This document shows, piece by piece, positions 1,399-63,300 of a DNA stretch of 64,000 nt. The stretch covers positions 54,937,293 to 55,001,292 of the forward strand of contig OZ024927.1 in assembly GCA_964017235.1 (NCBI GenBank), read 5' to 3'. Source of the DNA: Sabellastarte sp. h YS-2021. Lineage: Eukaryota > Annelida > Polychaeta > Sabellida > Sabellidae. Position numbers and translations under genes: made by a program. How positions within the stretch are numbered: the first letter of the stretch is position 1; every line of letters begins with the position of its first letter. Below the pieces are notes generated by a model, which saw only the letters and a program-made list of their open reading frames with translations, had not been told where the DNA came from and searched no databases.

Positions 1399-3163
1399 CT
1401 ACAAAATTAGATTAGGAAAGATTAGGAAAGAAACATAAGGATCAGTAGATTGCAACTGTTTGGTCTCATAAGCTTTGATATTTGCTTGAGTACACACACA
1501 GGGAAAATATATACCCTTTTTCACAAATGCAAGGGAACGGGTAGGAAATTGGAATCTTTGAATTGTTCTACCTTTCAAAGGGACATTTAGAAAATTCAAT
1601 TACTACAGGCTGTTCTTGAAAATGACTTATTTTGTTTCCATAGTAAACTATATTCATCCTATCTTCAAACATTAGAATGTATTTAAGCAGTGGTTCATAT
1701 AATAACCCATAACTTAAGATAACACTGTTATACAGAGGCTGCATTGTTTCCTTACCTTTTGACAACCTTCGAGGTTTAATATGCTAAAGTAAATACAACC
1801 TAATTACATTTCTTCTTTAGATAAATACTCTAGCTTGTATTTCCTGAAACAATATTACAGTGTCAGCTTATGCACCTCAGATTTTGTTCCTTTGATGACC
1901 AAAAGGCTTAAAAGTATGGCCAAAACAAATTTTGAAGGGCTTGCTCCAACAATATGCAAACCCCTGCAGTTTAATGGTATCTTTACAAAAGTGTATATCC
2001 CTCCTCAATACGGAATGGGCTCTTAACCCAAACATCACAGTCACTCTAGATACACAACTTGAAAAAAGATCGTGGCACTTTTATGAGCTGCATTAAAGTT
2101 AATAAAGTGTCTTCTATAAATGGACAATTTGTATAAAATAACACTTAGGTGTATAGGTTTGTGGTCATTTGAATAAATATATCATTTATCAAATCTAATG
2201 TCTTCCAGGGCCATTTAGTCAATGGAAGAGAACAATGGTGTACAATGAAGCTAATAAGATATTTTATTTTGATCTTCTAAAATGACCCTGTGAAGCCATT
2301 TCAATTATTCACCCCATACGTTTGTAATTGATATTTCTACATTACATCTTTAAAAGCATTTTATATCAAACACAGACTGAAGCAAATAAAATAGCAACTA
2401 TAACATTATACATAACAAAATATTTACACTATTAATATTGGCAGAACCATGCAAATACTCACTACATGTATAATGTAAATGTTTCTTTGTCTATTTACCT
2501 TCCTAGACTTTTAGTAAATTAATTATAATAAGCTACTTGATATGCTTTTAGTATTTAAACTGTCTGTAATCTGCAATGATTTTATTTCTAAAGTAATAAT
2601 GACATTTAGAACAAACTAAAACAAAAACACATTTTTTATCATATACTAAAAGGTTGAGATAAAAAAATCTGTGTGGACTGCACTAGCTTTATAGCTATTA
2701 CAACTGCTTCTAGTAAAAATATTATAAATACACTTACCTGAAAATATTGTAGTGGTTCAGAAATTGCTATGTCAATGTACATATAGCATAACACAAGTCC
2801 AGTGCAGCTATCTTCACGGTCAATAGCCACTGATGTGGTAATCTCACCGGTATCTGGATCTATCTGGAAGAGTTTTGCATCTTCCTCTTGGTTTGGTCCA
2901 GGGGTCATTCGGTATTTGAACGTCATTATAGTGGCTTGATCATAGTCGGCTTTAGTGTAAAGGTAGGCAGATATACTGCCAACAAAGGCATTTGCCTGTT
3001 TTTCAGCCACAGAATATTCCAGAAAGCCAGGATTGTCTTGATTGTCCTGTGATGCAATAATTTGCAAAATTGCTACCAAAATAACCCAAAACAGTTGGCT
3101 GCAAATGGTATATCTTCCTTTACAATAATCCATCTTGCTATAACTGTCTCCAAACCACTTCAT
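1108..3163 (-). CDS. Protocadherin-type cadherin, first two coding exons (gene continues off the left edge)
   Basis: Cadherins are cell-surface adhesion proteins built of Ca2+-binding extracellular (EC) repeats. The two exons join in phase 0 into a continuous N-terminus of 142 + 97 residues. A hydrophobic signal segment lies at about residues 19-39 ('FWVILVAILQIIAS'). EC1 follows, with 'FQIDPDTGEITT' and 'IDREDSC', and closes with 'ILDVNDNPPEF', the Ca2+-binding linker, just after the splice. EC2 then runs through 'ATDPDSP' and 'ELDREKKAQYSFK'. A cysteine after IDRE and a second about seven residues later are typical of protocadherin EC1. Later EC repeats, transmembrane segment and tail are not in the window. 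The ortholog group cannot be assigned from two exons. Seen: domain motifs and splice sites. Inferred: protocadherin subtype. A second in-frame ATG at 3133 would shorten the region before the signal segment by 10 residues. Confidence 0.85.
1399..2737 (-). other. Protocadherin intron 1 (between coding exons)
   Basis: This 1339-bp phase-0 intron has donor GTAAGTG (2737-2731) and the acceptor next to 1398. It is AT-rich. I see no additional exon in it and no clear mobile element. Confidence 0.75.
2738..3163 (-). CDS. Cadherin coding exon 1 (signal peptide and most of EC1)
   Basis: The ATG at 3163 opens 142 codons ending 'LQYFQ' at the consensus donor CAG|GTAAGTG. The start carries a signal-type hydrophobic segment of about 18 residues and is followed by EC1 motifs ('FQIDPDTGEITT', 'IDREDSC'). 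The open frame runs on to 2639 but that part lies beyond the donor and is intronic. Confidence 0.85.
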
Positions 3164-3572
3164 TTCTAAATGACTATATGCCTATTTAATTAACATTTGT
3201 CAACACTATTTACTGTATAAATTAGTTCAAAATCCCTGCTTGATTTATGAATTCAGAGCAATTCTATATTTGTCTATAATGTTATTGAAACTGCTGTATA
3301 ATTGTCACTGCACAATAAGTGCAGGACGCCTTTTGTGTGTATAAATGTCCTATTTAAATATGTCATACAAAGACTGCAATCATTGATTCAATCCGTGCAA
3401 TTTAATACTTTTATATCATCATATTACAGTTCCAATAGTATTTGATTACAGTAGTGATTAGATATCAAGTAAATGTAATCTTTGAAATTACAGATGGTCT
3501 AAAACTTGTCTCAGAATCCAACTTGTCTCAGTGAAGATATTATGAAGACTGCAGAGACTTCTCCCCTCACAC
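3164..3572 (-). other. Probable 5' UTR part of the first cadherin coding exon
   Basis: A good acceptor read on the minus strand ('cctttttcttatattgcag', AG at 3573-3574) lies 409 bp upstream of the ATG. This suggests that the exon begins at 3572 and that a non-coding first exon and the promoter lie further right. It is inferred from the splice signal only. Confidence 0.4.
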
Positions 3573-6500
3573 CTGCAATATAAGAAAAAGGTTGATCAAA
3601 ATACAAGTCGCAAACGCCCAGATACCGTCTTCTCTTGTTTAAAAAAAATAGAAACTTTTCACAAGTGAAAGTCTCCTGCGTATTAAGTGACAGTCAAAAA
3701 GGTGACAACCTCAGCAATTGAAAAAAAAGATCTATGTTACCCAAAACACCTTTCTGGGTTTTTTTGGGCCAACGAAATTGTATATGTTTGCTCACTTGTT
3801 TGTTTATCCTATGATCTTCCTTTTCAAACCTCAACAAAAAAACTGGTAACATTGCATGCTTATTTCAGTGACATAAGACATGCAACAGAAACACCTAGAC
3901 TGTATGAAACAAGTTACAGACACAACACCTTCCTGAAACACTAATACCCACTTGAGAGCCCACTTTTCCTAGTCAACCACTTCAAATGCCTTTCACTAAA
4001 ATAAATATTTCACCATCCATTTGCATTGGAGTTAAGAGGACCTCCCTTTAAACAGCCACACTTGATGTATGCACGGGGTTTTAGGGGCTAATGTGACCCA
4101 ATTTTCCTCTGTATATAACGAGCTATGCCTATGATCTTTAGGCTACTAATTAATGGTCACTTCTTTTAAAGAGATCTATCCCTCCTCCTGGAGGGGTTTT
4201 ATGCAATCCAAAAGATGGCTCACTGCCTGCCTGCCAATGCCTACAATTGCTTGTTTTTGTACCCCATGCTGTGCAGCAGAGCAAGAGTTCATGCCTAATT
4301 CCAAATTCCCACTTTTTCTGGTTTAATCAGACGACAATTGTCATTTTACGTTCACCATAAAGTACACCATTTTAAGACTGACAATTATATTCATCTATAA
4401 AACTTGACTGTAGCCTCAGTCATAATATCTTTGTTATTTTCTTTGGGATTTTTAATCAATGTTTTAACTAAGTCACTAGAAAAGTATGCTATGCGTTAAC
4501 ACTGGAATAACCCAATGCCTTCACAACAGTCACGAGATATTCTATTGCAACAACACCACCCAACTGAACAAAAACTCGGGTTGAAGCAGCTCATTATCTG
4601 TCCTCACGCATCTCTACAATACCTTAACGGTAGTGTAGCCAGTCTCACTGGCTGTATTAACGAGGCGCCTCTACCTCTCAGTGGGTGATGGATGTTCATT
4701 AGTTGTCAGCACCTTTTTATGTGTATTTCTGCCTGTGCAGTCTTTATATTTGTGACGACAAGTGGGAGAGAGAGAGCTGTCATTCAAATGAACAGCCCAC
4801 CCCCATTTCCATAAAAGATAAAAGCCACCACGACATTTTGGTGGTTGCTCCCAAACTGCCCCAACCTTATAATTTCAAGAAAAAAGATTTATCAAAAGTA
4901 TTCAGCTGCATACTGCATATTCAAACTACCATATTAGACATGTATATCATATGTATATAACAAACTTATTTTAAAGAGTCCTATCCACAAATTGTTGGCT
5001 TATAACTGCCTGTGAGCATGGAAATTATTACTGAAACAATGATCTACAGTTTCTCAAGTTTAAGGTTGACAATTTTTTTTCTGTCATTACCATGCTCATA
5101 AAACTCTCACCACTAATGAAATCCAACCCATAATTTGGTCAGTCTAATCATAACCGATCATGGCTTATGCTCGATTAACTATTCGTCTTAATGTACCTTT
5201 CTTTTTTCAGCAGGACTTACTCATTGTACATGATCCAAAAGGTGGGATTTTCCACCCAAAGCACCAAATTGGACATAACAAAAATAAATCTAATCCCACA
5301 TCATACAGGTCACAAGAAAACACCATTAAGGCAGTACCTTTAATTATTTTTGATGAGGGAGATTTTTTATTCAAATCCAGTTATAAGTTTCTGTGATCTG
5401 ACCATAATTTGACCAGTACACTTATGCATAATTTAGCATTCTGCATAATTACTCACAATATGGCCATATATATATATATATATATACAACCTAATGAATT
5501 GATGTGAGACTCATTTAATCATTTTATTTGTCTGGACCCTGATAATTAGCAGCATTGGGCGTTTGACAATATTTAACGACTGGCTTAGAATAAACACACA
5601 GCAAATATGTCAGGGTGGGTTTGTGCTAACAAAGGTTATGTAACACGGAAACAACAAAATCCACCTATCTCACACACCATCCTAAGTGTTTGTCCAAGAG
5701 ATAGTACAATTTAGACAGCAATTTATCAATGAGGTGCCACGTCTATTAGCCTACTTTGTAGATAGTCACTGGGCATTAGACTGTCTAAAGTGTACATATC
5801 TTATCAACGTCACAGAGCTATTCCCTCAAAGCCTAAAGCTGTAATGTGTCATTGTTGTTTGATCAAATTTGGCACACTCTTATTGACATGTGTGGAGGGG
5901 GTCAGTAGTTTATTAGCCTTATTGTTGAATTAAGGTTGGTCAAGCTAAACCTGAAAACATAGGATTTTGGCAGAAACTTGAAAAACTTATGATACAGGGT
6001 AGGTGTTAGTTTAATAACAAAACACTTCAACTTGTTAAAATACATAGAAAATAGTTCACACGAATCCATCTGCATGAAAATTTTCATGTTTTAATATTTT
6101 TTACCTTATTTTAAAAACTTTTTACTTCATAAGACTTCAACAGTTCACACTTCAAGTGTTGTTTGTTTATAGGAGCATAAATATTTATTTTCGTGTAAAT
6201 TTGCCAAGTGTGTATTAAACCTGTCTTACTTTGAGATATTGTTGCACAACTGGCTACAACAATGATACCCTTCTTTTCCAAATAATTTAGTAAGTTACTA
6301 GCTTTGCATCTTTTCTATTTTAATATAATTTCACTTTCCTTCATTGAGTTAAACACATCTAACATCATATCGGTAAGCTATATCCATTGCATATTATCTT
6401 TAGATAGTTCCATAAACAAAGATAGTGACACATTCTTTTGGCCATCATTAAATGTGCACTTTTGACATGCTAACCTTTCACCAATATCATCCCCTTTATA

Positions 6501-7060
6501 TTTAGCCTCACAAAAGGAAATGTCCACAGATAAATACACATACTGAAACCTGACATAAAGCAATAGGGAAACAGACTAACATTCCCCTTATGTTTTCTTG
6601 CAAGTTTTAAAATGTTCCTTAATTAGTAGTTACTTTTTTCTATCTAGACCTCTGTCCTTTCATTTCTTTATCTTGTACTCTATAGTTTAATAAATTTCCA
6701 ACATGTGGTGGAAAATACTGGGGTAATTTTTGAAAAAGACTTGATGAAAGTTTAAATTATAGGATGGCTTCATACATGACTCTAAATGATGACTCATGTA
6801 ATTGTGGCATGAGGCTTGAATTTCACCCAAAGGTGTTTGATGTACAGGGTTCTGCTATCACCAAATGAGCCTTATTCTGTGTTTGTGTTTTAAGAGGTGC
6901 CATTCTAATTTTCTTTTTTTTTCAGTATTTTTAGGTCAAGGGTGGCCTGGTATGGAAGCCATTAATTTATCACATGAAGAAAAGTCCCTTCATGTTGGCA
7001 TTTTATTTTAGTTTTAATTAAATTTGGAATACTTCACAGTATCCATGGAGCTAGTGTTTT
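3573..7060. other. No gene recognised
   Basis: AT-rich sequence upstream of, or in the 5' intron of, the cadherin gene. The only clear structure is the TA microsatellite at 5466-5487. Small open frames here lack composition or motifs that look coding. Confidence 0.5.
5466..5487. repeat. (TA)n microsatellite
   Basis: An uninterrupted AT dinucleotide run of about 21 bases. Confidence 0.9.
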
Positions 7061-7074
7061 CTATAGACTGTTGG

Positions 7075-7300
7075 GCTGATTTATTGATTTGAGTGCAGTG
7101 TTTACAACACACTATATAGGTGGTATCACGATACATAGTAGAAAGGGTGGAGGAAAGCAATGCAAGCCAGTTAGTAAAGATTCTGTACTGAAAACTATTA
7201 CACACTGATAAGCGACTTACCAACTTTACCACTTCAGGTCTAGCTGGGAATCAAACCCAGGTCGTAAAAGGTAGGAGGTGGGTGTGTTAACCAATACTTC
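7075..7300 (-). mobile_element. Old tRNA-derived SINE copy
   Basis: Read on the minus strand, it has a B-box-like 'GGTTTGATTCC' (7258-7248) after 'CACCCACCTCCTACC', then 'AAAGTTGGTAAG' and a diverged body. This is the same layout as the better copies at 23984, 24720 and 59427. The head is eroded and no target duplication is visible. Confidence 0.5.
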
Positions 7301-9077
7301 CCCATATATAGGTGAAGTATGCTTATATTCTGAAGGACTGTCAACTTTCTGTGGGTTTTAGAAAGACTAGATCAAGGTCCTTGTGGCCTGTCTTTAATCT
7401 TCTGATTGTTCTATCTAGTGTTGATGCATGTTGATAACTTGCTGTAAATTACCAGTGTATATAATCCAGGGGTTTGGTGTGAATTTCTTTATGCAGGATA
7501 CTGTTGAAGAAATAACAGCAACCCTTTTTAAGAAACGGGTTTAGCAGATAAACATACTTTTAAATTTAACCTGGCACTTATATAAACGTTTTGCACGTAG
7601 AGTTTAAAACTGTTAAGAGTTTTTTTTATTGTTTTATACGCCCAAAAATGTGAACATTTCCTAGATTTTTGCACATTTACATTCAAATTCAAACATGATG
7701 ACAAGGTGATAAGATTTATATTGGTTACAATGAGCAGGTTTTAACCACAGATAAATAACTGGATATAAAAATACCTCATGCTTTGTCCAAATTTTATCAA
7801 CAACTACAAAATTACATGTTTCGTCGCCTCCTTTATTAACTACTTGAAACACAGTCTGGAATTTTATACAAAAAAACTTGAAGCTAGTGCATCTGCATAA
7901 TTTAAACTACAACAAACCTTTTTGTTATGTCCCATCCCTGTTTACTTTTTTCTGGTAATCGTGTATTTACACAGGTTTTCCATACACTTCATACTTCAAC
8001 AGTTGATTATTCATCCAGTGTTTTGCCATCTTTCAAATCCTTTCCCACCAGCCGTCACCACTAACTTAGGATTGTAAAATAAGCTTATTTACCACAATAT
8101 GCAAATACCCTGGTCAGTTTTTAATCCTTAAAGAACACCTTACTAACATTGATAAATATCACTAAGAAATTCATCCTTGGTAACATTTGTACTTGTAACT
8201 GAATAAGTTTAAGAAGCTTTTACATGCACTTCTCAATCCTATGTGTTTGGTTGTAGAGTAAATCAGACGTATATTGATGGCTGTGAAGTAATAAGCATCA
8301 AAAACGACCGTCTTGAGAACCACTTTTGTATTCCTGTAAAGATGGTCCCCATTTTCTCTCCGGAAATCTTAAGTTTTAGTGTGCACCATTCACTACCTCT
8401 TCTGCACTACAAAGTTATTATTATACTAAATATCTGTAATTAATAGTATCGTTTATTGTGGCAGAGAATTACATTTCAGGCATATAGATAACTTACCCTT
8501 TTTACTTACTATAAAATATCATAAAATATTTATCCAAAGTCATCCTTAAAGTAACTTCATTGGTCTAGGTTTCTGACCTGTATTCTACAAGAAGATAAGT
8601 AGCTGTGTTGAAAGAACCCTCTTTCATTCTGTTAAATCTCTTTCACACTTCATTAATTGCCCAGAAAAAAATATGCGGCAATAAAAGAACATCTATACCT
8701 TACAGAAAAACCTATGATAACACCACTCCAGGAATCCTTGAGGTACTTCACTTTTGTACGCAAAAGAGATTGAGTTTATATCTAATCTTGAAAATGCCTC
8801 AAAGCTATCCACTATTTCCGCTGAGGCTGTTCAGTTTATAATCCCAATGTACTGAGATTTTAATCATGCTTTTTAAATGTTATACACTGATACTTGATAT
8901 GTGCCCATTTGTGCACTAAATCACATTAAACATAGCATTACCGTTGTATAATTTCTGCAAACTCACCATCACTCACTGTGTTAGATAATTGTTAGTTTTC
9001 GGGTTGTAAACCATCAAATGCTTTAGTAAATTCTAAAAAGACGAGCAACTCACAATTGGCGAAGTTTTCAATCAAAA
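7301..9077. other. No gene recognised
   Basis: AT-rich sequence with scattered short open frames only. Confidence 0.5.
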
Positions 9078-43562: not shown

Positions 43563-43625
43563 ATTCTAATATGACTTTAACAGTGCTTAATCTGCATCAA
43601 AAGACAGATCCAAAGGTGCAACAAG
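43563..43625 (-). mobile_element. L2-like LINE 3' tail fragment
   Basis: 'AATTCTAATATGACTTTAAC' then 'AGTGCTTAATCT' and 'AAGGTGCAACA' resemble the 40193 element's 3' end in the same (minus) orientation. It is squeezed between the plus-strand LINE and the satellite. Confidence 0.5.
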
Positions 43626-44500
43626 ATTTTAAAGGTCAAGGTCACTATGACAAGGTCAAAGGTCAAATCAAGGTCACACCATGATGGTGCACACCTACAA
43701 CCTCTAACCAATGTCCCTACCAAGCATCAACTTCCTACACCTTACGGTTTCCAACATATAGCCTGGACAAGATTTTATAGGTCAAGGTCACTACGGCAAG
43801 GTCAAAGGTCAAATCAAGGTCAGACCATGACGTTGCACACCTACACCCCCTAACCAATGTCCCTACCAATATCAACTTCCTACACCTTACGGTTTCTGAG
43901 ATATAGCCCAGACAAGATTTTGTAAGTCAAGGTCACTACAGCAAGGTCAAATCAAAGTCAGACCATGACGTTGCACATCTACACCCCCTAACCAATGTCC
44001 CTACCAAGTATCAACTTCCTACACTTTACGGATTCCGAGATATAGCCCGGACAAGATTTTATAGGTCAAGGTCACTATGGCTACGTCAAAGGTCAAATCA
44101 AGGTCAGTGATGTTGCACACCTTCACCCCCTAACCAATGTCCCTACCAAGTATCAACTTCCTACACCTTACGGTTCCGAGATATAGCCCTGACAACATTT
44201 TATAGGTCAAGGTCACTATGGCAAGGTCAAAGGTCAAATCAAGGTCAGACCATGACATTGCACACCTACACCCCCTAACCAATGTCCCTACCAAGTATCA
44301 ACTTCCTACACCTTACGGTTGCCGAGATACAGCCCGGACAAGATTTTAGAGGTCTAGGTCACTACGGCAAGGTCAAAGGTCAAATCAAGAACAGACTATG
44401 ACTTTGCACACTTACACCCCCTAACCAATGTCCCTACCAAGTATCAACTTCCTACACCTTACGGTTTCTGAGATACAGCCCGGACAAACTTTTTCCCGCC
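43626..44500 (+). repeat. AGGTCA-rich satellite, unit about 139-147 bp, six copies
   Basis: Each unit runs 'GATTTTATAGGTCAAGGTCA', 'AAGGTCAAAGGTCAAATC', 'TTGCACACCTACACCCCCTA', 'CCAATGTCCCTACCAAG', 'ATCAACTTCCTACACCTTAC', then 'GAGATATAGCCCGGACAA'. Unit starts fall near 43633, 43780, 43925, 44064, 44204 and 44351; the array ends in 'TTTTTCCCGCCTCCCGCCCA'. The copies are highly similar. Copy 3 has lost one half-site and copy 4 has a change in another. No coding function is suggested. Confidence 0.9.
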
Positions 44501-50700: not shown

Positions 50701-53700
50701 TAGAGCCAAAAGATCGCCTTGGTTCCAGATATTTAGGTGTAACCAATGACTGGTATAAGAATTTCTCTGTAACCAATTTCCTCGTGCAGTAACTGGTTGA
50801 TCTGAGACAGCCACTTGGACCCTTAAAAGGCTACTGCTGGTCTGTTAGCCAGTTCTGTGGACCTGCCCAGTACCGGGGTCTAACCGGCTATAGGTGAAGC
50901 AATCCTCTGTAACCAGTTCCTGTTGGCTCCATAGTTCTGCGAAAACTCATTGGAGCTGGCAGAACTGGGCGAATTAGAATATATCTCAGCAGGCATAGGC
51001 TTATATGAAATAACTCCCTTCTTCCTGTCCATAACTGTGGAATCAGCAGAATTTCAATATAACCAATGATCCTCTGTAACCAGGAAGTCTGGATACTGGT
51101 ACTCCATCATGTACTCAACCTCCAAAGCGATTTTCAATAGTTTGCATGCAATATAGTCAGCAATCAGTGTGAAAATATCTCCAAAAAGGCCAAAAATGGC
51201 CTCGGTCAGGTACTTTAGGCAACTTGTAGATGACCTTCAAGGTCAAATTTCAGCATGCTTATAGAGGACATATGTATGTATTATATATACCAGCCATAGG
51301 ATGATCTAACCTTCTGTATATGAGAACTGGGCCAAATGTGAAAAAATGGCCAAAATCTGACATTTAAGAGACCACCAGTGACCTTGAGATTGAAGATCAA
51401 GGTCACAAAACAATAGCATTCGTGGCATTGCCCACATATACCCACATACCAAATTTGAAAGGTCTAACTAAAATATTTTTAAGCTATCGCATCCAAAAGA
51501 AAATCTCTGCGGCGGCGGCGTGACCGTACTGAATTCAAAGTATCCCCAACTTTCGTCCGGGGATACAATAAAAGACCTCCAGATAAATATATTTCTGAGC
51601 AAATCATCTGACAAATAATCGGGTGTGTCTGTGGTACAGTAATCTGCCCTGTAGAAAATATGCTACAGTACGGATTGCCACACTCAAGAAGTTTGTCTCG
51701 AGTGGGGTTTTAGTAACACTTTCCTAGCTGGTGTACCCACCACTTTTTTCAATTTCTGCACCATTACTACAGTGGTTTGCTCCAAATAAGAAGTGATAGA
51801 AAGTTAGAAACTATAATTTCCCTTGAAAATGGGGTGAATCAATAATAAAGAGAAGTATAATACCTTTAGCAACGATACAATATTGCTTTCTGAAAGTGAA
51901 ATGAACCTGCAGAGAAATATAAATGCTTTGTCAAATTTGCAACATGCAGGTCTAGTTTAGGATACCAGCCTAAACCACAATCTAGTTAATTTACTGGAAC
52001 ATGGCAAATGAATGCTGCTGTAGTTTAGCACTTATTCTCCAGTCCATTAAATCACCATACTCCAAACACTTTGTAAATAATTGGGGATCTGGGAGAATTT
52101 ACTGGATAGTGGATACTGTATTATATTTTGTGCACAAATGAAAAATCTTTTTTGAACAGTGTAAATATAACAGAGTGTCTTCAGAACCGGAAGGACGGGT
52201 CATACTTCTCTTGATTTCAGAACAGTCATGTCCACATCATAAAATATTTTACAACTTCACTTATATTGGCTGCTGTTGTTGGTGAAAATCAATACAATCA
52301 AACAACAATCAATATTTAAAATAAATGGAGTTTTATTTTCTTTTAAATAAATGTTACAAATCATTCTGTCTTTTACAAATTACTTTAGTGGATAAAATTT
52401 GCATATTTTATGGAAATTCACGAGTGTTGCCAATGACAACTAAATTTTATTTATGTTCAAAATTCATGTATTATTTCACATAACAAAATCAGGATTTTAC
52501 TGACCCTTATATTATAAAACTTTATTTTATCAAATATATATATTTTTTTGTGAAAGACATGAAGGGGAAGGATGTTTTTTACAACAGGTCATGAAGCAAA
52601 TCATTTGTAAAACTGTTTGCGGTACCCAAATTGATTGTTTTCCTATCCATCAGTGACTGTTCTGAAGCCACACCATAAATATAATGCAATTTGAGAAAAT
52701 GAACTGGATACCACTTTATTTTCTTTGGATGTCAGTACTTCCTGATGCTTAATCATGGCTTTTTTTTGTGTGTATGTGTGTGTGAATAATGTATCACTGT
52801 TTTTTATGTAACTTTGGCCCATACACAACTTATTGCACATTTGTGTACTTCTACCGTATCCAAGGAGATAAAAACATTTTAAAGTCATTTATAATGTCTA
52901 AAAACAATGGACTCTTCTAATTTATTTCATAAATTATTGTAATTCCGATGTGTTCACGTAATATTGATTAAGTTAGTATATTTTCTATATTTTTGACAGC
53001 CTTTTTAAAGACGTTGTTATTTCCAGTAGTTACGACAGGAAATCCATGATTTCATTGGGATATTTTTGAGCAAGGGCTATTCTACTCTTTAAAATGGCAG
53101 TTTTAAATTAAATATTTGGTAAAATACAAGTGGGAAGACATTAGGTGTCATTATGTTGCTTCATTTTCATGCAGTTTTTATATATACATAATAGGCTGCT
53201 TATAGACCGAGTTTCTGTCCCGTCGCGTATTGCTGTTGATATTTCTGATGGTACGCAATGGCGAGGGACAGAGTTCATATGTACCTGTTTTCTGTGTAAA
53301 GTTTGGACGGCATATTTGTACACATATTATCACAAATATAAAGTGCTATTTGGTTTCTTTAAGGTATGTACATGTGCCGTTCACTTATATTTCATGCCAA
53401 TCAAACTGGCATGTATATATTTCAACCAATTTTCAAAATGTAAACAAACCTTTAACATTACATAGTTATCCACAAAAATTCCTGGCTTCTAAAAGCAGTT
53501 TACTTTAACAACATATGTATTGGAAACTGGATACAGCTGTAATAGACATAACAATAACTTTTTAAAGTGAATGCAATAATTCCCCACAGTTCAAGATTTA
53601 CACAGAAAAAAGCAACATGTGAGCTCTGTCCCTCGCCATTGTGTCCATCAGTATATCAATAGCAATTGGCGACGGGACAGAAACTCGGTCTAGGCTGCTT

Positions 53701-59426: not shown

Positions 59427-59649
59427 AGGGGCCACGGTGGCAGAGTGGTAACACTCTCGCCTCCCACCTCTGAGGCCGGGGTTCGATCCCCGTGATGGCC
59501 TTAAGTGGGAAAGCTGGTAGTTGCTTGCCGTTGGTAGGCAGTTTACAGTACACAACCGTAGCGAACTCTATGTACTGGTTTCCTCTGCCCTTCCAACTAC
59601 CGTGGTGATATGACCTGTATAGTGTTGAAAGCGACGTAAAACCCCAAAT
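59427..59649 (+). mobile_element. Young tRNA-derived SINE with perfect 11-bp target duplication
   Basis: The head has A box TGGCAGAGTGG (59438-59448) and B box GGTTCGATCCC (59480-59490), both near consensus for RNA polymerase III. The body contains 'GTAGGCAGTTTACAGTAC' and 'GGTGATATGACCTGTATAG', and the tail 'GTTGAAAGCGACGTAAAAC'. ACTGCAGCATC flanks it exactly (59416-59426 and 59650-59660). It is the best-preserved member in the window and may be transcribable. Confidence 0.9.
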
Positions 59650-59876
59650 ACTGCAGCATCCTAATTTTAAACAATCCTGACAGGTGTTGATAGATTTATT
59701 GGTGCACACAGCATGTGAAGGGGGAAAGAAAACTGTATTTAAAGGTTCCCAACGACACTTATTCCATAGACTGTAATTTTCTTAGACTTAGTAGCATCCA
59801 TGAATTCACCTGTCGTTTCCGCCGTAGTTTGTTTTGTTTTTGATACTTTACGTAGTGCACTACCACATTCTACGGT

Positions 59877-59980
59877 GAGACATACACAATTTGCGAGTTT
59901 CGATCTGCGCATGTGCAATGGTAGTTGTTATCTTCCGCTTCTACTTCCTGGTGGAGTAAACAAACGTTTCAGGATATAGA
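59877..59980. repeat. Left partner of a distant inverted repeat
   Basis: 'CACAATTTGCGAGTTTC' and 'GGAGTAAACAAACG' match, inverted and in the same order, 'GAAACTCGCAAATCGTG' and 'GTTTACTCTCC' at 63196-63300. Identity is patchy between these blocks. Confidence 0.45.
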
Positions 59981-59984
59981 CATT

Positions 59985-60479
59985 CACGTGATGGAATTTT
60001 ATGATTTCTGAATGTTTTCCATACATATTTTTGTTGAACTCTCCTCAAAAGTTTGTTCTGAATTTATTTGGGGTAAATAAACGTTTTTGTGGCTTAAGTC
60101 ATGATATATAGTTTATATTTAAGTAAAATCATGTATTATCGCCCAGTGTATATGCAGTACGTATGTATATATATATATGTATATATGTGGCAGGGGTTAT
60201 AAAATGTTGAATAACTTTGGCATTTATCGATCAATTTTGGCCAAATAAAGACCACAAGAAAGTACATTTCCAAGGCTTTCTAAATATAAAAGTTTAACAG
60301 ATATAAGTTCAACAACTGATTTTTGAGTAATTTTTTTTAAAAGCTTAAATGTCAGATTTCAACATATATAAATTACTTTAACATGAGATGGAAACATGGA
60401 TCCACTACTGTAAATCGATTATGCCTTTGCAGGTTTGCATGAAAAAAAAATTATAATTTTTTGAGATGCAGAACTATTT
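59985..60479. other. No gene recognised; TA-rich microsatellite at about 60165-60187
   Basis: AT-rich spacer with a 'GTATGTATATATATATATG' run. No coding signature. Confidence 0.5.
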
Positions 60480-60520
60480 TTTGGAAATTGTTTATCTATT
60501 CTTATAAAAAATTAAGTGTT

Positions 60521-60608
60521 ACCTCAGACTGAGAGGCCTGGGTTTGATTCCCAGTGATGTGTAAATCAAGACATCATAGCTTAGTGATAGAGCACTCAGT
60601 CTGGGTGT
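60521..60608 (+). other. Permuted tRNA-like cloverleaf, left arm
   Basis: In DNA order: 3' half 'CCTCAGACTGAGAGGCCTGG' with T-arm CTGGGTTTGATTCCCAG (B box) and acceptor strand TGATGT. A 10-base loop 'GTAAATCAAG' (60561-60570) follows. The 5' half then begins ACATCA, the acceptor partner, with D-arm 'AGCTTAGTGATAGAGC' (A box), and ends at anticodon strand CTCAGTCTGGGT. Joined the usual way round, the halves give an alanine-type tRNA fold. As laid out, the acceptor is closed by a loop and the anticodon stem is open and extended. Not expected to yield a normal tRNA without circularisation. Confidence 0.55.
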
Positions 60609-61322
60609 TTGCAATTGCGAGCCAATTAAATATTAGTTAAATCTAGAATGTGAACCACCACTTAACAAATAAAAAACTCGAAATTTTTTTTAATGTTTTC
60701 ATGCATATTAATATTTTTAGAGGTGATAAGATGTTTTGTTAAAAAATAGAAAAAATACTTGCTAAAAAGCATGCAATACTATGGCCCAGGGAACACGTGT
60801 TTCCCTGAATTCTGATATTGAAGTCTAATATCATGCACAAAGAGCAACATGGTGTTGTGTGTTAAAAAGCACCAAGTTACATGTTGGACTTGACAAAAAT
60901 TCATCATAACTTGATATTACAAAGGTTGCAAGATAAAATTTGGAGATATTATTTATTTGGTTCAAACCCATGGTCTTTACATATTACATGGCCACCCACA
61001 AATCTGTAATGATTTTAAAGTAAGTTCTTTTTTATGTGAGGGGCGGGAAAATGTATTATTTATCTTTTTTTTTGGGCCACATTATTTACTACTTCACTTT
61101 TTTGACTAAGTTTTTCTGTTTACTAAATTATTTGGAATAAGGACCAAAATTCACTGAAGTACCTTACTGGAGGGATTTTACTTTAAAAATTTTGTGGATT
61201 ATTTTGCATTTGTACTGTCGAACTTGTATTTTTTTAGTTCTATGTGTTTTCGAGTGTATTTTTTTTGTTGGGGACTGTCTTATGTATTTTGACTAGTATG
61301 GGTAGATACATCCCAGATAACA

Positions 61323-61510
61323 TTCTACTGGTGGCTCACCAGTGTACGGTCGGCAGATTTTGCCACCGTTGGGCCACTTTGGCCCACCGGTGGCTTTTGC
61401 TTGTATAATTAGCAGTTTGTCACCATTGGGCCAATGGTGGCTTTCGAACCAATCTTCATGTCTGTAGAATGTGCCACCAGTGGGCTATCAGTGGTTTTGG
61501 TTGAAGATAG
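61323..61510. repeat. Ladder of short palindromes around 'GGGCCAATGGTGGC'
   Basis: About three spaced units of roughly 70 bp contain 'GCCACC-TTGGGCCA' and 'CCAATGGTGGC' phrases. CACCATTGG and CCAATGGTG flank one base, a near-perfect hairpin at about 61424-61442. It lies in the middle of the 60480-62105 element. Confidence 0.6.
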
Positions 61511-61982
61511 TTCAAGTCAGCAATAATAAAGGATTTTGGGAAACTTAGTAAAAATTTATTCATAAGTGTGTGTCTAACAATGAGATTTCAGTGAGCCCAC
61601 AATTTTTAACTCATTATTTATCAATTTTAGACATACAAACAATATTTTTATTATAAATTGACAATACAAAAGTTGTCACCTATTAGTTAGGGAGTGCAGG
61701 TGTACAACATCTTGGTAGACTTTGATTTGACCTTTCACCATGCTGCAGTGACCTTGACCTTTAAAATCTTTTCTGGGCCACAAATGTAGGTTTACTTAAC
61801 TGTGCCATTTCTATAGACACTTACACCTGAATACATTGTACAGCTTCATGTATTGTCTTGTATTTATGTTATGTACATAATCATGATGTAAAAAGGTAAG
61901 AAAATACAGCTGTATAATTAATATGGCAAGGTCTAAAGTCAATGTAGATTTAACTTAATATTTATTTTGCTTCCATTTGCAT

Positions 61983-62070
61983 ACACCCAGACTGAGTGCT
62001 CTATCACTGAGCTATGATGTCTTGATTTACACATCACTGGGAATCAAACCCAGGCCTCTTAGTCTGAGGT
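61983..62070 (-). other. Permuted tRNA-like cloverleaf, right arm
   Basis: Same layout as 60521-60608, on the opposite strand, with two differences in 88 positions. D-arm 'AGCTCAGTGATAGAGC' is closer to a normal tRNA A box. The 3' anticodon strand is CTAAG instead of CTGAG, which weakens one pair. Confidence 0.55.
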
Positions 62071-62579
62071 TGCACTTAATTTTTTTTTTAATAAGGATAA
62101 AAATTTCCACTGACTTTTATATCTTAAAAACTGTTCTTAATTTCTCTAAGCTATGTAACAAATGCGCACAAACTGTAAGTTCTAGTAACACAGAGACAAT
62201 ATCTGAAAGGTCAAGGTTGCTATGGCCTGACCTCAGGTGGGATTAAATGTACATGGATTAAATATATAGTCAACAAAAATGTTGCTCATGAATATTCATA
62301 TCTGTATCTGATTTCCTAAATTACCTTCCAAAAGACTTTACAAGAGTATAATAGATAAGCAGATAATAGGGAATTTTGGCGAAATTGACCTATATATGAC
62401 CTCAGGGTCTGTGGTTTTAAATTAATTTTTAAACTGCGATTTCTCATCCATTTCTTTTGATTTTGATGCAGCAAAAAACGAGCAGAAGCTCTGTAAACAT
62501 ACCTCTCTATTTATGTATGCAACATATTTGTAGGTTTCAGAAATATCAAAGAAATATTGGCACTTGTTAATAGTACTAA

Positions 62580-63009
62580 TGCTGCGTTCTTACCGGCCGT
62601 AAACCCGACTTCACAGCCTGTAAATTTGTCAAGAACGGTCTCACAGGTGGTATATACCACTGGTGAGTTGGGTGTCACCAGAAACTTTCCAAACTTTGAC
62701 CTTCACCTCTAGTGACAACAAAGATGCAGAATACATGTGCTTTTGTTATAAAAAACCTGCTAAATGAACTGTTTCGGTACTCAGGATTTTTATAAATAAC
62801 CTCAGAAAACGAATAACGAATGAAATATATGTCTTTTCTATGGTGGATAGCGAAGTATTGTGATTTCTTTTATTTCTTTCTCTTTGTCATTTGTGTTTGT
62901 TTATATCCACACATAAACACACCAGCGGTAAATTGTGAAGAACGGTCAAAACTTTCCACTGGTGGGTACCAACTCACAGGTCGTGTGCACAGGCTCTCTG
63001 AATGCAGCA
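62580..63009. mobile_element. MITE with TAA target duplication, probably Harbinger-type
   Basis: The ends TGCTGCGTTC and, inverted, TGCTGCATTC are flanked by TAA on both sides (62577-62579, 63010-63012). A TWA duplication of 3 bp is usual for PIF/Harbinger. Internally, related 'AAGAACGGTC' and 'CCACTGGTG' phrases recur. No coding capacity. Confidence 0.65.
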
Positions 63010-63195
63010 TAATTTGACAAGAGGCAGTGGGCGAAAATAGGAGATATTATACTAAAACTGCAGCATGTAATTTTCATAAATTCCGTAGTATATACAGAAC
63101 GAATTTATATAATTTATTCCTCCATTTCCAGTAATAATTTTAATAATATATATGTGTTAATGTGGAGTCTCCACTGAAATTGATTTTCGCTACTT

Positions 63196-63300
63196 CCTGG
63201 TTCTTCTGTCGCAGACGTTTTTTGTTTACTCTCCCTAATTAAATATTCAAAATGGCGGATGAAACTCGCAAATCGTGTATTGACACACATCTATATATAC
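63196..63300. repeat. Right partner of a distant inverted repeat; promoter-like motifs
   Basis: It is inverted relative to 59877-59980. It also holds 'ACTTCCTGG' (ETS-like) and 'AAAATGGCGG' (YY1-like), with an ATG opening a 20-codon frame 'MADETRKSCIDTHLYILNAV' (63252-63314). It could be a first exon or simply repeat. There is not enough evidence for a gene. Confidence 0.3.

Follow-up and report, generated by a model that had tools for sequence, protein, structure and literature searches.

The window, by which we mean the whole 64,000-nucleotide stretch of Sabellastarte DNA analysed here, contains a non-autonomous element with sharp ends, short terminal inverted repeats and two inverted subterminal arms, each of which carries a tRNA-like module with its halves in permuted order. 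The features are as follows, with the basis of each in brackets:

59882..63280, + strand (arbitrary): whole non-autonomous element (sharp ends common to L010, L012, L014, L018 and L025)
59882..59901, + strand: left terminal inverted repeat, ATACACAATTTGCGAGTTTC (end comparison among copies)
60482..60645, + strand: left subterminal arm (arm-to-arm inverted alignments)
60523..60603, + strand: left permuted tRNA-like module (RNA fold; rotation test; 490 genome junction copies)
60525-60533/60595-60603, + strand: basal stem of the left module (RNA fold)
60538-60554, + strand: T-arm of the left module (RNA fold)
60555-60560/60571-60576, loop 60561-60570, + strand: acceptor stem of the left module (RNA fold)
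60579-60593, + strand: D-arm of the left module (RNA fold)
60604..61987, no strand: inner segment, in inverted orientation to the outer flanks by comparison with other copies (flank typing; marker switch between 60581 and 60608)
61682..61778, no strand: part of a unit of about 146 bp (tandem in relatives such as L009 and at window 43621-44487)
61945..62109, - strand: right subterminal arm (arm-to-arm inverted alignments)
61988..62068, - strand: right permuted tRNA-like module, inverted (RNA fold; rotation test; arm typing)
62581..63009, no strand: insert of 429 bp (missing from aligned relatives, with a 3-4-bp overlap at the edges, e.g. L010 1667-1032 then 1035-764)
63261..63280, - strand: right terminal inverted repeat, differing from the left one at one position (end comparison among copies)

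Without the insert, the element is about 2.98 kb long. Copies extend on both sides of the tRNA unit into longer element sequence with ATACACGATTTGCG ends; the terminal inverted repeats measure 20 bp, and the 165-bp inverted arms are subterminal, not terminal. The first-pass annotation had suggested a possible mobile element whose ends are the permuted folds. A repeated, mobile and paired sequence it is, but its termini lie about 0.6 kb and 1.2 kb outside the modules, and the coordinates of that annotation fit the arms but not the mobile unit, which is larger. Two copies from a subfamily (L109-L112) have ATACACCAGTTTACGGTTTC-like sequence at each end instead, and this matching change supports the terminal repeats being real. 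One copy, L015, stops before its right end in the comparison.

The window element has no frame of at least 100 amino acids between stops, and its relatives have small frames only, except for one of 212 amino acids in L024; four small frames of relatives gave no Pfam match. Sharp-ended terminal inverted repeats and many dispersed copies, with no transposase gene in the window element and the examined relatives, are the features of a non-autonomous TIR DNA transposon (MITE-like), and the element shows those that we tested besides target duplication. No target duplication longer than 2 bp was seen; the copies compared read ATACAC...GTGTAT, where a TA duplication in a fixed ATAT site is indistinguishable from none. 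Spy elements insert between AAA and TTT. Such flanks, AAA on the left and TTT on the right, were not found here, the left flanks being mixed (gtt, gca, gga, tat and others). An excerpt of PMC10294476 describes Spy elements as making no target duplication. No empty site with a repeated flank was found among the loci collected, and a search by the terminal repeats yielded no autonomous partner. The one long candidate retrieved, L092, was rejected as such a partner, being long only through a nested retrotransposon (2758-7572, with a 1604-residue open frame) that lies inside a relative of the element and that we take from its motifs to be Gypsy-type. Tandem arrays of the unit related to 61682-61778 sit between the modules of relatives such as L009, and MITEs containing tandem repeats are reportedly present in the bivalve Donax, a likeness that goes by title alone. 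Elsewhere in the window, 43621-44487 holds six copies of a 146-bp AGGTCA-rich unit.

The two arms are 89% identical in inverted orientation over 167 aligned bases (87% over 154 nt in a second alignment). In the minimum-energy RNA fold, both form a basal stem, a 5-bp T-arm, a 6-bp 'acceptor' stem with a 10-nt loop and a 4-bp D-arm, which confirms what had been proposed for each arm, namely a cloverleaf with the T half ahead of the D half and acceptor strands closed by a 10-base loop. The 11-bp closing stem described at the same time is roughly right: in the left arm, the basal stem is unbroken for 9 bp (CAGACTGAG/CTCAGTCTG) and continues with further pairs beyond a 1-nt bulge, and in the right arm a change from CTGAG to CTAAG costs one basal-stem pair. 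The fold energies of the two sense arms correspond to z = -3.6 and -3.3, with none of 200 shuffles equal to either arm. Because the antisense strand of the right arm folds too (z = -3.4, 1 of 200 shuffles equal), a hairpin at the DNA level is also compatible with these results. The B and A boxes reported for the arms are present as a B-box-type motif, GGTTTGATTCC, at 60541 (+) and 62050 (-), and an A-box-type motif, TAGCTYAGTGATAG, at 60577 (+) and 62014 (-). B precedes A on both strands, and consensus patterns revealed no A-then-B order on either strand of the element.

When searched in native order, neither the arms nor any other part of the 64-kb window gave a tRNA with ARAGORN. After the halves had been re-joined with D before T, a tRNA was called in 58 of 432 joins for the left arm and 36 of 432 for the right, and dinucleotide-shuffled arms taken through the same rotation test gave no call at all (0/100 for each arm). 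Because ARAGORN calls the re-joined halves and never the native order or the shuffles, the tRNA-likeness and the permutation of the modules are real. Rfam showed nothing tRNA-like within 59500-63000. Permuted tRNA genes are described from red and green algae and Thermofilum in part of a review (PMC4033280), in which the table row on permuted tRNAs names no animal. Like these genes (PMC4033280), the module has its 3' half upstream, a short loop joining the acceptor ends and the anticodon strands outside; unlike them, it is multi-copy, has no definable anticodon and no bulge-helix-bulge, and stands in inverted pairs inside a transposon. The bulge-helix-bulge motif (two 3-nt bulges around 4 bp) is absent from the joined ends, where a 9-bp uninterrupted stem takes its place, as judged by eye on the left-arm and consensus-like folds with their 9 pairs across the anticodon-stem boundary. 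The likeness of the module to a permuted tRNA gene is thus limited to the order of its halves; it lacks the defining splice motif, and the earlier suggestion that it is processed in the same way is not borne out.

Searched with up to 2 mismatches, the 32-nt permuted junction occurs 490 times (248 + 242) in the 1.79-Gb genome, in which the reversed junction pattern, used as a control, does not occur; the element is therefore repeated, as had been supposed. The D half has 385 + 386 matches when up to 3 mismatches are allowed, and a 101-bp left-arm query gave 1080 candidates, the best 40 scored being 98-100% identical. IMG/VR and GTDB contigs gave no match to a gapped version of the junction pattern. 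The exact normal-order pattern has no occurrence in the genome, and among the 40 scored of 725 candidates for a 70-nt normal-order query none is a contiguous copy, and in 38 the T half lies upstream, about 10 bp from the D half. Of twenty small loci sampled, 19 were taken at D-half places and one, L037, came from the junction search. The permuted module is complete in 17; L042 is permuted but has lost its T-arm to a deletion, L043 and L046 are truncated, and none has normal order. tRNA-derived SINEs carry A- and B-box tRNA sequence in many copies, in head-body-tail order. The element shares with them A- and B-box tRNA sequence in high copy and differs from them in the wrong order of its halves, in its DNA-transposon ends and in that no head-body-tail order was seen here; a head in A-then-B order was found by neither pattern, query, sampled copies nor box scan.

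The modules occur mostly in convergent pairs, in agreement with the inverted pairing anticipated for the core. A convergent partner is in view at 18 of 20 larger loci (L009-L028, 7-9 kb); L019, one of the two others, has a deletion at that place, and L013, the other, is 99.98% identical to L016, where a partner is visible 3.5 kb off. Five of eight 3.1-kb loci (L001-L008) have a partner, and L002, L003 and L006 have none within about 1.5 kb. Among the first 100 exact junction places, neighbours less than 10 kb apart form 25 convergent (+ -), 3 divergent (- +) and 2 parallel (- -) pairs, the convergent ones 930-4498 bp apart; half of these places (50/100) belong to a convergent pair of exact copies, in a list that excludes partners carrying any mismatch. 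On separate contigs, L013 (C6:62249841) and L016 (C5:147131702) share 6.1 kb at 99.98% identity, which may be read as a long non-coding form that was transposed or duplicated very recently. L027 (C4:116072315-116081315) is a large inverted duplication with four modules in the order + - + -, parts of which match window 51073-51572.

The module is usually intact across different flanks. To avoid selection on the module itself, we picked copies with the outer flank 62110-62260 as query (181 candidates, 40 scored) and collected 20 of the 40, the rest being already sampled, identical or not taken. The module is kept in 18 of these 20 copies and lost in two, L058 being broken inside the basal stem and L068 outside it. 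Across the 18 copies and the window copy, 18 of 1539 positions in the 81-nt core are off consensus (1.2%), compared with 34 of 1101 (3.1%) in the adjoining outer flank of the same 19 copies. The next 30 inner bases of these copies are off consensus at 192 of 519 positions, as this is where several inner sequences start; at least five kinds begin 0 to about 12 bp past the end of the basal stem. In all 28 pairs formed from eight representative right arms, core similarity exceeds that of the outer flank (means 95.3% vs 73.7%), a comparison biased to conserved cores by finding the right arms through core motifs (left arms were picked by query); since arms were located by module motifs, cut modules are under-counted in this wider comparison.

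Three high-copy module classes are present in the genome, and their candidate lists may overlap. Class D (query L020:5570-5697) gave 970 candidates, with the best 40 scored at 93-100%, and class C (query L031:60-230) gave 1041, with the best 40 scored at 96-100%. All ten collected copies of class C lie inside a longer repeat, with one module within the 1.77 kb viewed; pairing in this class was assessed in L011 alone. Class D keeps the cloverleaf and a 7-bp acceptor, with a different, long basal helix, and the commonest class has a 6-bp acceptor with the seventh position unpaired. The acceptor loop varies in length and sequence, and the acceptor and T-arm are mostly kept.

The hairpin receives moderate support from helix tests, strongest in class D. 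In 23 close variants, covariation was at shuffle level (118/500) and not significant. In a wider set of 25 variants, with more class D members added, 95.0% of cells are paired (0/500 shuffles), 13 cells are changed on both sides (0/500) and covariation is 0.125 (14/500); three pairs are changed on both sides (118/500 shuffles), and the number of pair types is below the shuffles (500/500). Because 11 of the 13 both-side cells represent a single class-D change in the D-stem, mainly in one lineage, and the structure slid by -3 columns likewise gives 13 such cells, the covariation amounts to few events. The G-U changes in the 25 variants fit the sense strand. We also tested 16 modules, with 500 shuffles each, for complementarity beyond the 5-bp anticodon stem, counting the 4 stem pairs that follow it. 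In 12 of them at most 23 of 500 shuffles were as good, with 0, 1, 2 and 1 for the class D members; the other four are not notable (75 for the window left arm, and 191, 212 and 272).

Arm pairs were then compared by the types of their outer and inner flanks, pairs with an untypable arm being set aside. In ten fully typed pairs (L010, L012, L014, L015, L018, L021, L028, L069/070, L071/072 and L085/086, several near-identical and so representing fewer independent elements), outer-L goes with inner-L and outer-R with inner-R. The window copy has outer-L with inner-R and the reverse, and its inner segment, a 97% minus-strand match to L014, is inverted. Its diagnostic positions show one switch per arm, between the D-arm T/C marker and the GGGTGT marker, an interval of 26 bp within the D half of the module that falls in a block identical between the arms. 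L089 is inverted too, its left arm switching upstream of the T/C marker and its right arm just outside the core. Outer flanks of the R type stand on both sides in L091 and, with less certainty, in L090; the near flank of L090 is weakly L-like (52 vs 39), which makes it the least certain exchange case. L077/078 was considered as a third inversion and rejected, as in the full piece, L090, the further right flank aligns with the right flank of L021, pointing to outer exchange. The window copy, L089, L091 and less certainly L090 thus show repeated exchange at the module or within it. Homologous recombination between the inverted arms suffices to account for it, as no near-identical block of theirs is longer than the module, and switch points in the most conserved block are expected from homologous recombination alone as well.

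On the basis of the copy number, pairing, half order, ends, intactness of the module and exchange or inversion of its neighbours at or within it, we give an even chance to the reading that the feature is a retained subterminal tRNA-derived hairpin, acting as cis element and recombination site of a high-copy non-autonomous DNA transposon with short terminal inverted repeats. Two convergent hairpins, each derived from a tRNA with its 3' half ahead of its 5' half, are typical of a copy, which would be mobilised by a transposase acting in trans and binding the terminal repeats; direct binding at the modules is not indicated, because the ends are 0.6 kb and more away. Copies bearing the hairpin would be favoured, so that it would be retained as a cis element acting through its structure, as DNA or as RNA; in this step we infer 'needed' from 'conserved'. 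As the longest near-identical block between arms and families, the hairpin might further lead to template switching in recombination or gap repair, and such switching would turn the inner segment round and create new subfamilies by joining outer and inner parts in fresh combinations. We consider it improbable that the permuted hairpin is, beyond this, a selected and portable cis element, present in three high-copy classes, in convergent pairs and at the point of inversion and recombination (or else an RNA processed in the algal manner).

Passive hitch-hiking explains much of the same data and is a close rival to the cis-element reading: a tRNA relic long trapped in the transposon would owe its near-identity to recent master-copy bursts with recombination or gene conversion, and its hairpin would be functionless. 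We regard this as a serious possibility, short of an even chance. The candidate counts of the three classes (1080, 970 and 1041, with possible overlap) allow homogenisation, the window switch lies inside a block identical between the arms, as homologous recombination predicts, covariation is weak, and two of the 20 flank-picked copies lack the module. However, a mere passenger fits less well with the same module in unlike flanks in 28 of 28 pairs, even if picking by core motifs leans towards conserved cores, with an inner junction beyond the stem in 18 of the 20 flank-picked copies, and with a class D that retains cloverleaf and 7-bp acceptor despite its different basal helix. As to origin, two tandem tRNA-derived SINE heads or tRNA genes may have been truncated to one 3' half and the next 5' half and trimmed into a hairpin, a derivation that we find rather unlikely although the half order and short linker match a head-to-tail junction and both halves fit one tRNA shape in the ARAGORN rotation. 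The sampled loci (17 of 20 permuted and whole, one without its T-arm, two truncated, none in normal order) give no support to the relic of two tandem SINE heads offered as an alternative in the first-pass annotation. The missing halves are, by eye, not beside the module in the contexts inspected, and the absence of normal order from the exact pattern (0), the scored candidates (0 contiguous in 40 of 725) and the sampled loci (0/20) stands against it too, in searches that would miss an ancient, diverged tandem ancestor.

A function at the RNA level appears very unlikely to us. Sense transcripts from either strand would carry a permuted pre-tRNA-like fold near their 5' side, to be cut by RNase P and RNase Z of the host at the acceptor loop into a processed or circular small RNA. 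Convergent pairing would place one 5'-proximal sense module on each strand, and the fit of G-U changes to the sense strand and the variable loop between a mostly kept acceptor and T-arm are consistent with this; against it are the missing bulge-helix-bulge motif, the acceptor of only 6 bp with its seventh position unpaired in the commonest class, the B-then-A order, which rules out an ordinary type-2 Pol III promoter within one module, and the absence of any A-then-B order from both element strands in the consensus scan. It is most improbable that the inner part is an invertible or exchangeable cargo, with a recombinase crossing over site-specifically at the module. Such a cassette would account for the inverted window copy and L089, for the outer exchange in L091 and probably L090, and for the change of inner sequence near the module base, but the switch points differ among the window (26 bp, in the D-arm half), the left arm of L089 and its right arm, the inner junctions vary by about 0-12 bp, ten fully typed pairs have the other orientation, and no recombinase was found.

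tRNA-derived sequences are classic retroposon heads, and here a permuted tRNA sequence is a conserved subterminal part of a DNA transposon, located at the switch points of part exchange between subfamilies. A hairpin required for mobility or repair would make this a defined example of transposon evolution being shaped by a structured module, and if it is transcribed and processed, it would represent permuted tRNA-like RNA in animals. Should the selected cis-element reading be true, no earlier case of a permuted tRNA structure playing a role in an animal would be on record in the open-access PMC papers searched, in which, including excerpts of PMC10294476 and PMC8905726, we found no description of such an element. 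The closest parallels are partial. MER6 is described in part of PMC6887750 as a MITE carrying a SINE V domain, and the element resembles it as a non-autonomous DNA transposon with a conserved SINE-type module; in place of the SINE core domain of MER6, it has a permuted tRNA hairpin, usually two per element and inverted (PMC6887750). The Galileo or Foldback-type elements of Drosophila have, according to an excerpt of PMC3573991, chimeric copies, 7-bp target duplications and exchange in long repetitive terminal repeats. As in Galileo, outer and inner parts from different subfamilies are re-combined (PMC3573991); unlike Galileo, the present element has 20-bp terminal repeats, and its exchange takes place at a tRNA-like subterminal module (PMC3573991).

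Some further repeats touch on the element or its parts. At window 7244-7261 (- strand), an exact 18-nt match to the T-arm lies in a tRNA-derived repeat whose order is normal by eye. Just outside the element, window 59582-59650 holds a piece of about 70 bp that recurs in the loci of twelve relatives at 79-94% identity and is apparently another dispersed repeat. On the unplaced contig C588, fifteen right termini stand at a regular spacing of about 4.55 kb between 1284 and 65086, with seven left termini listed between them, which may be read as a tandem array of the element plus flank.
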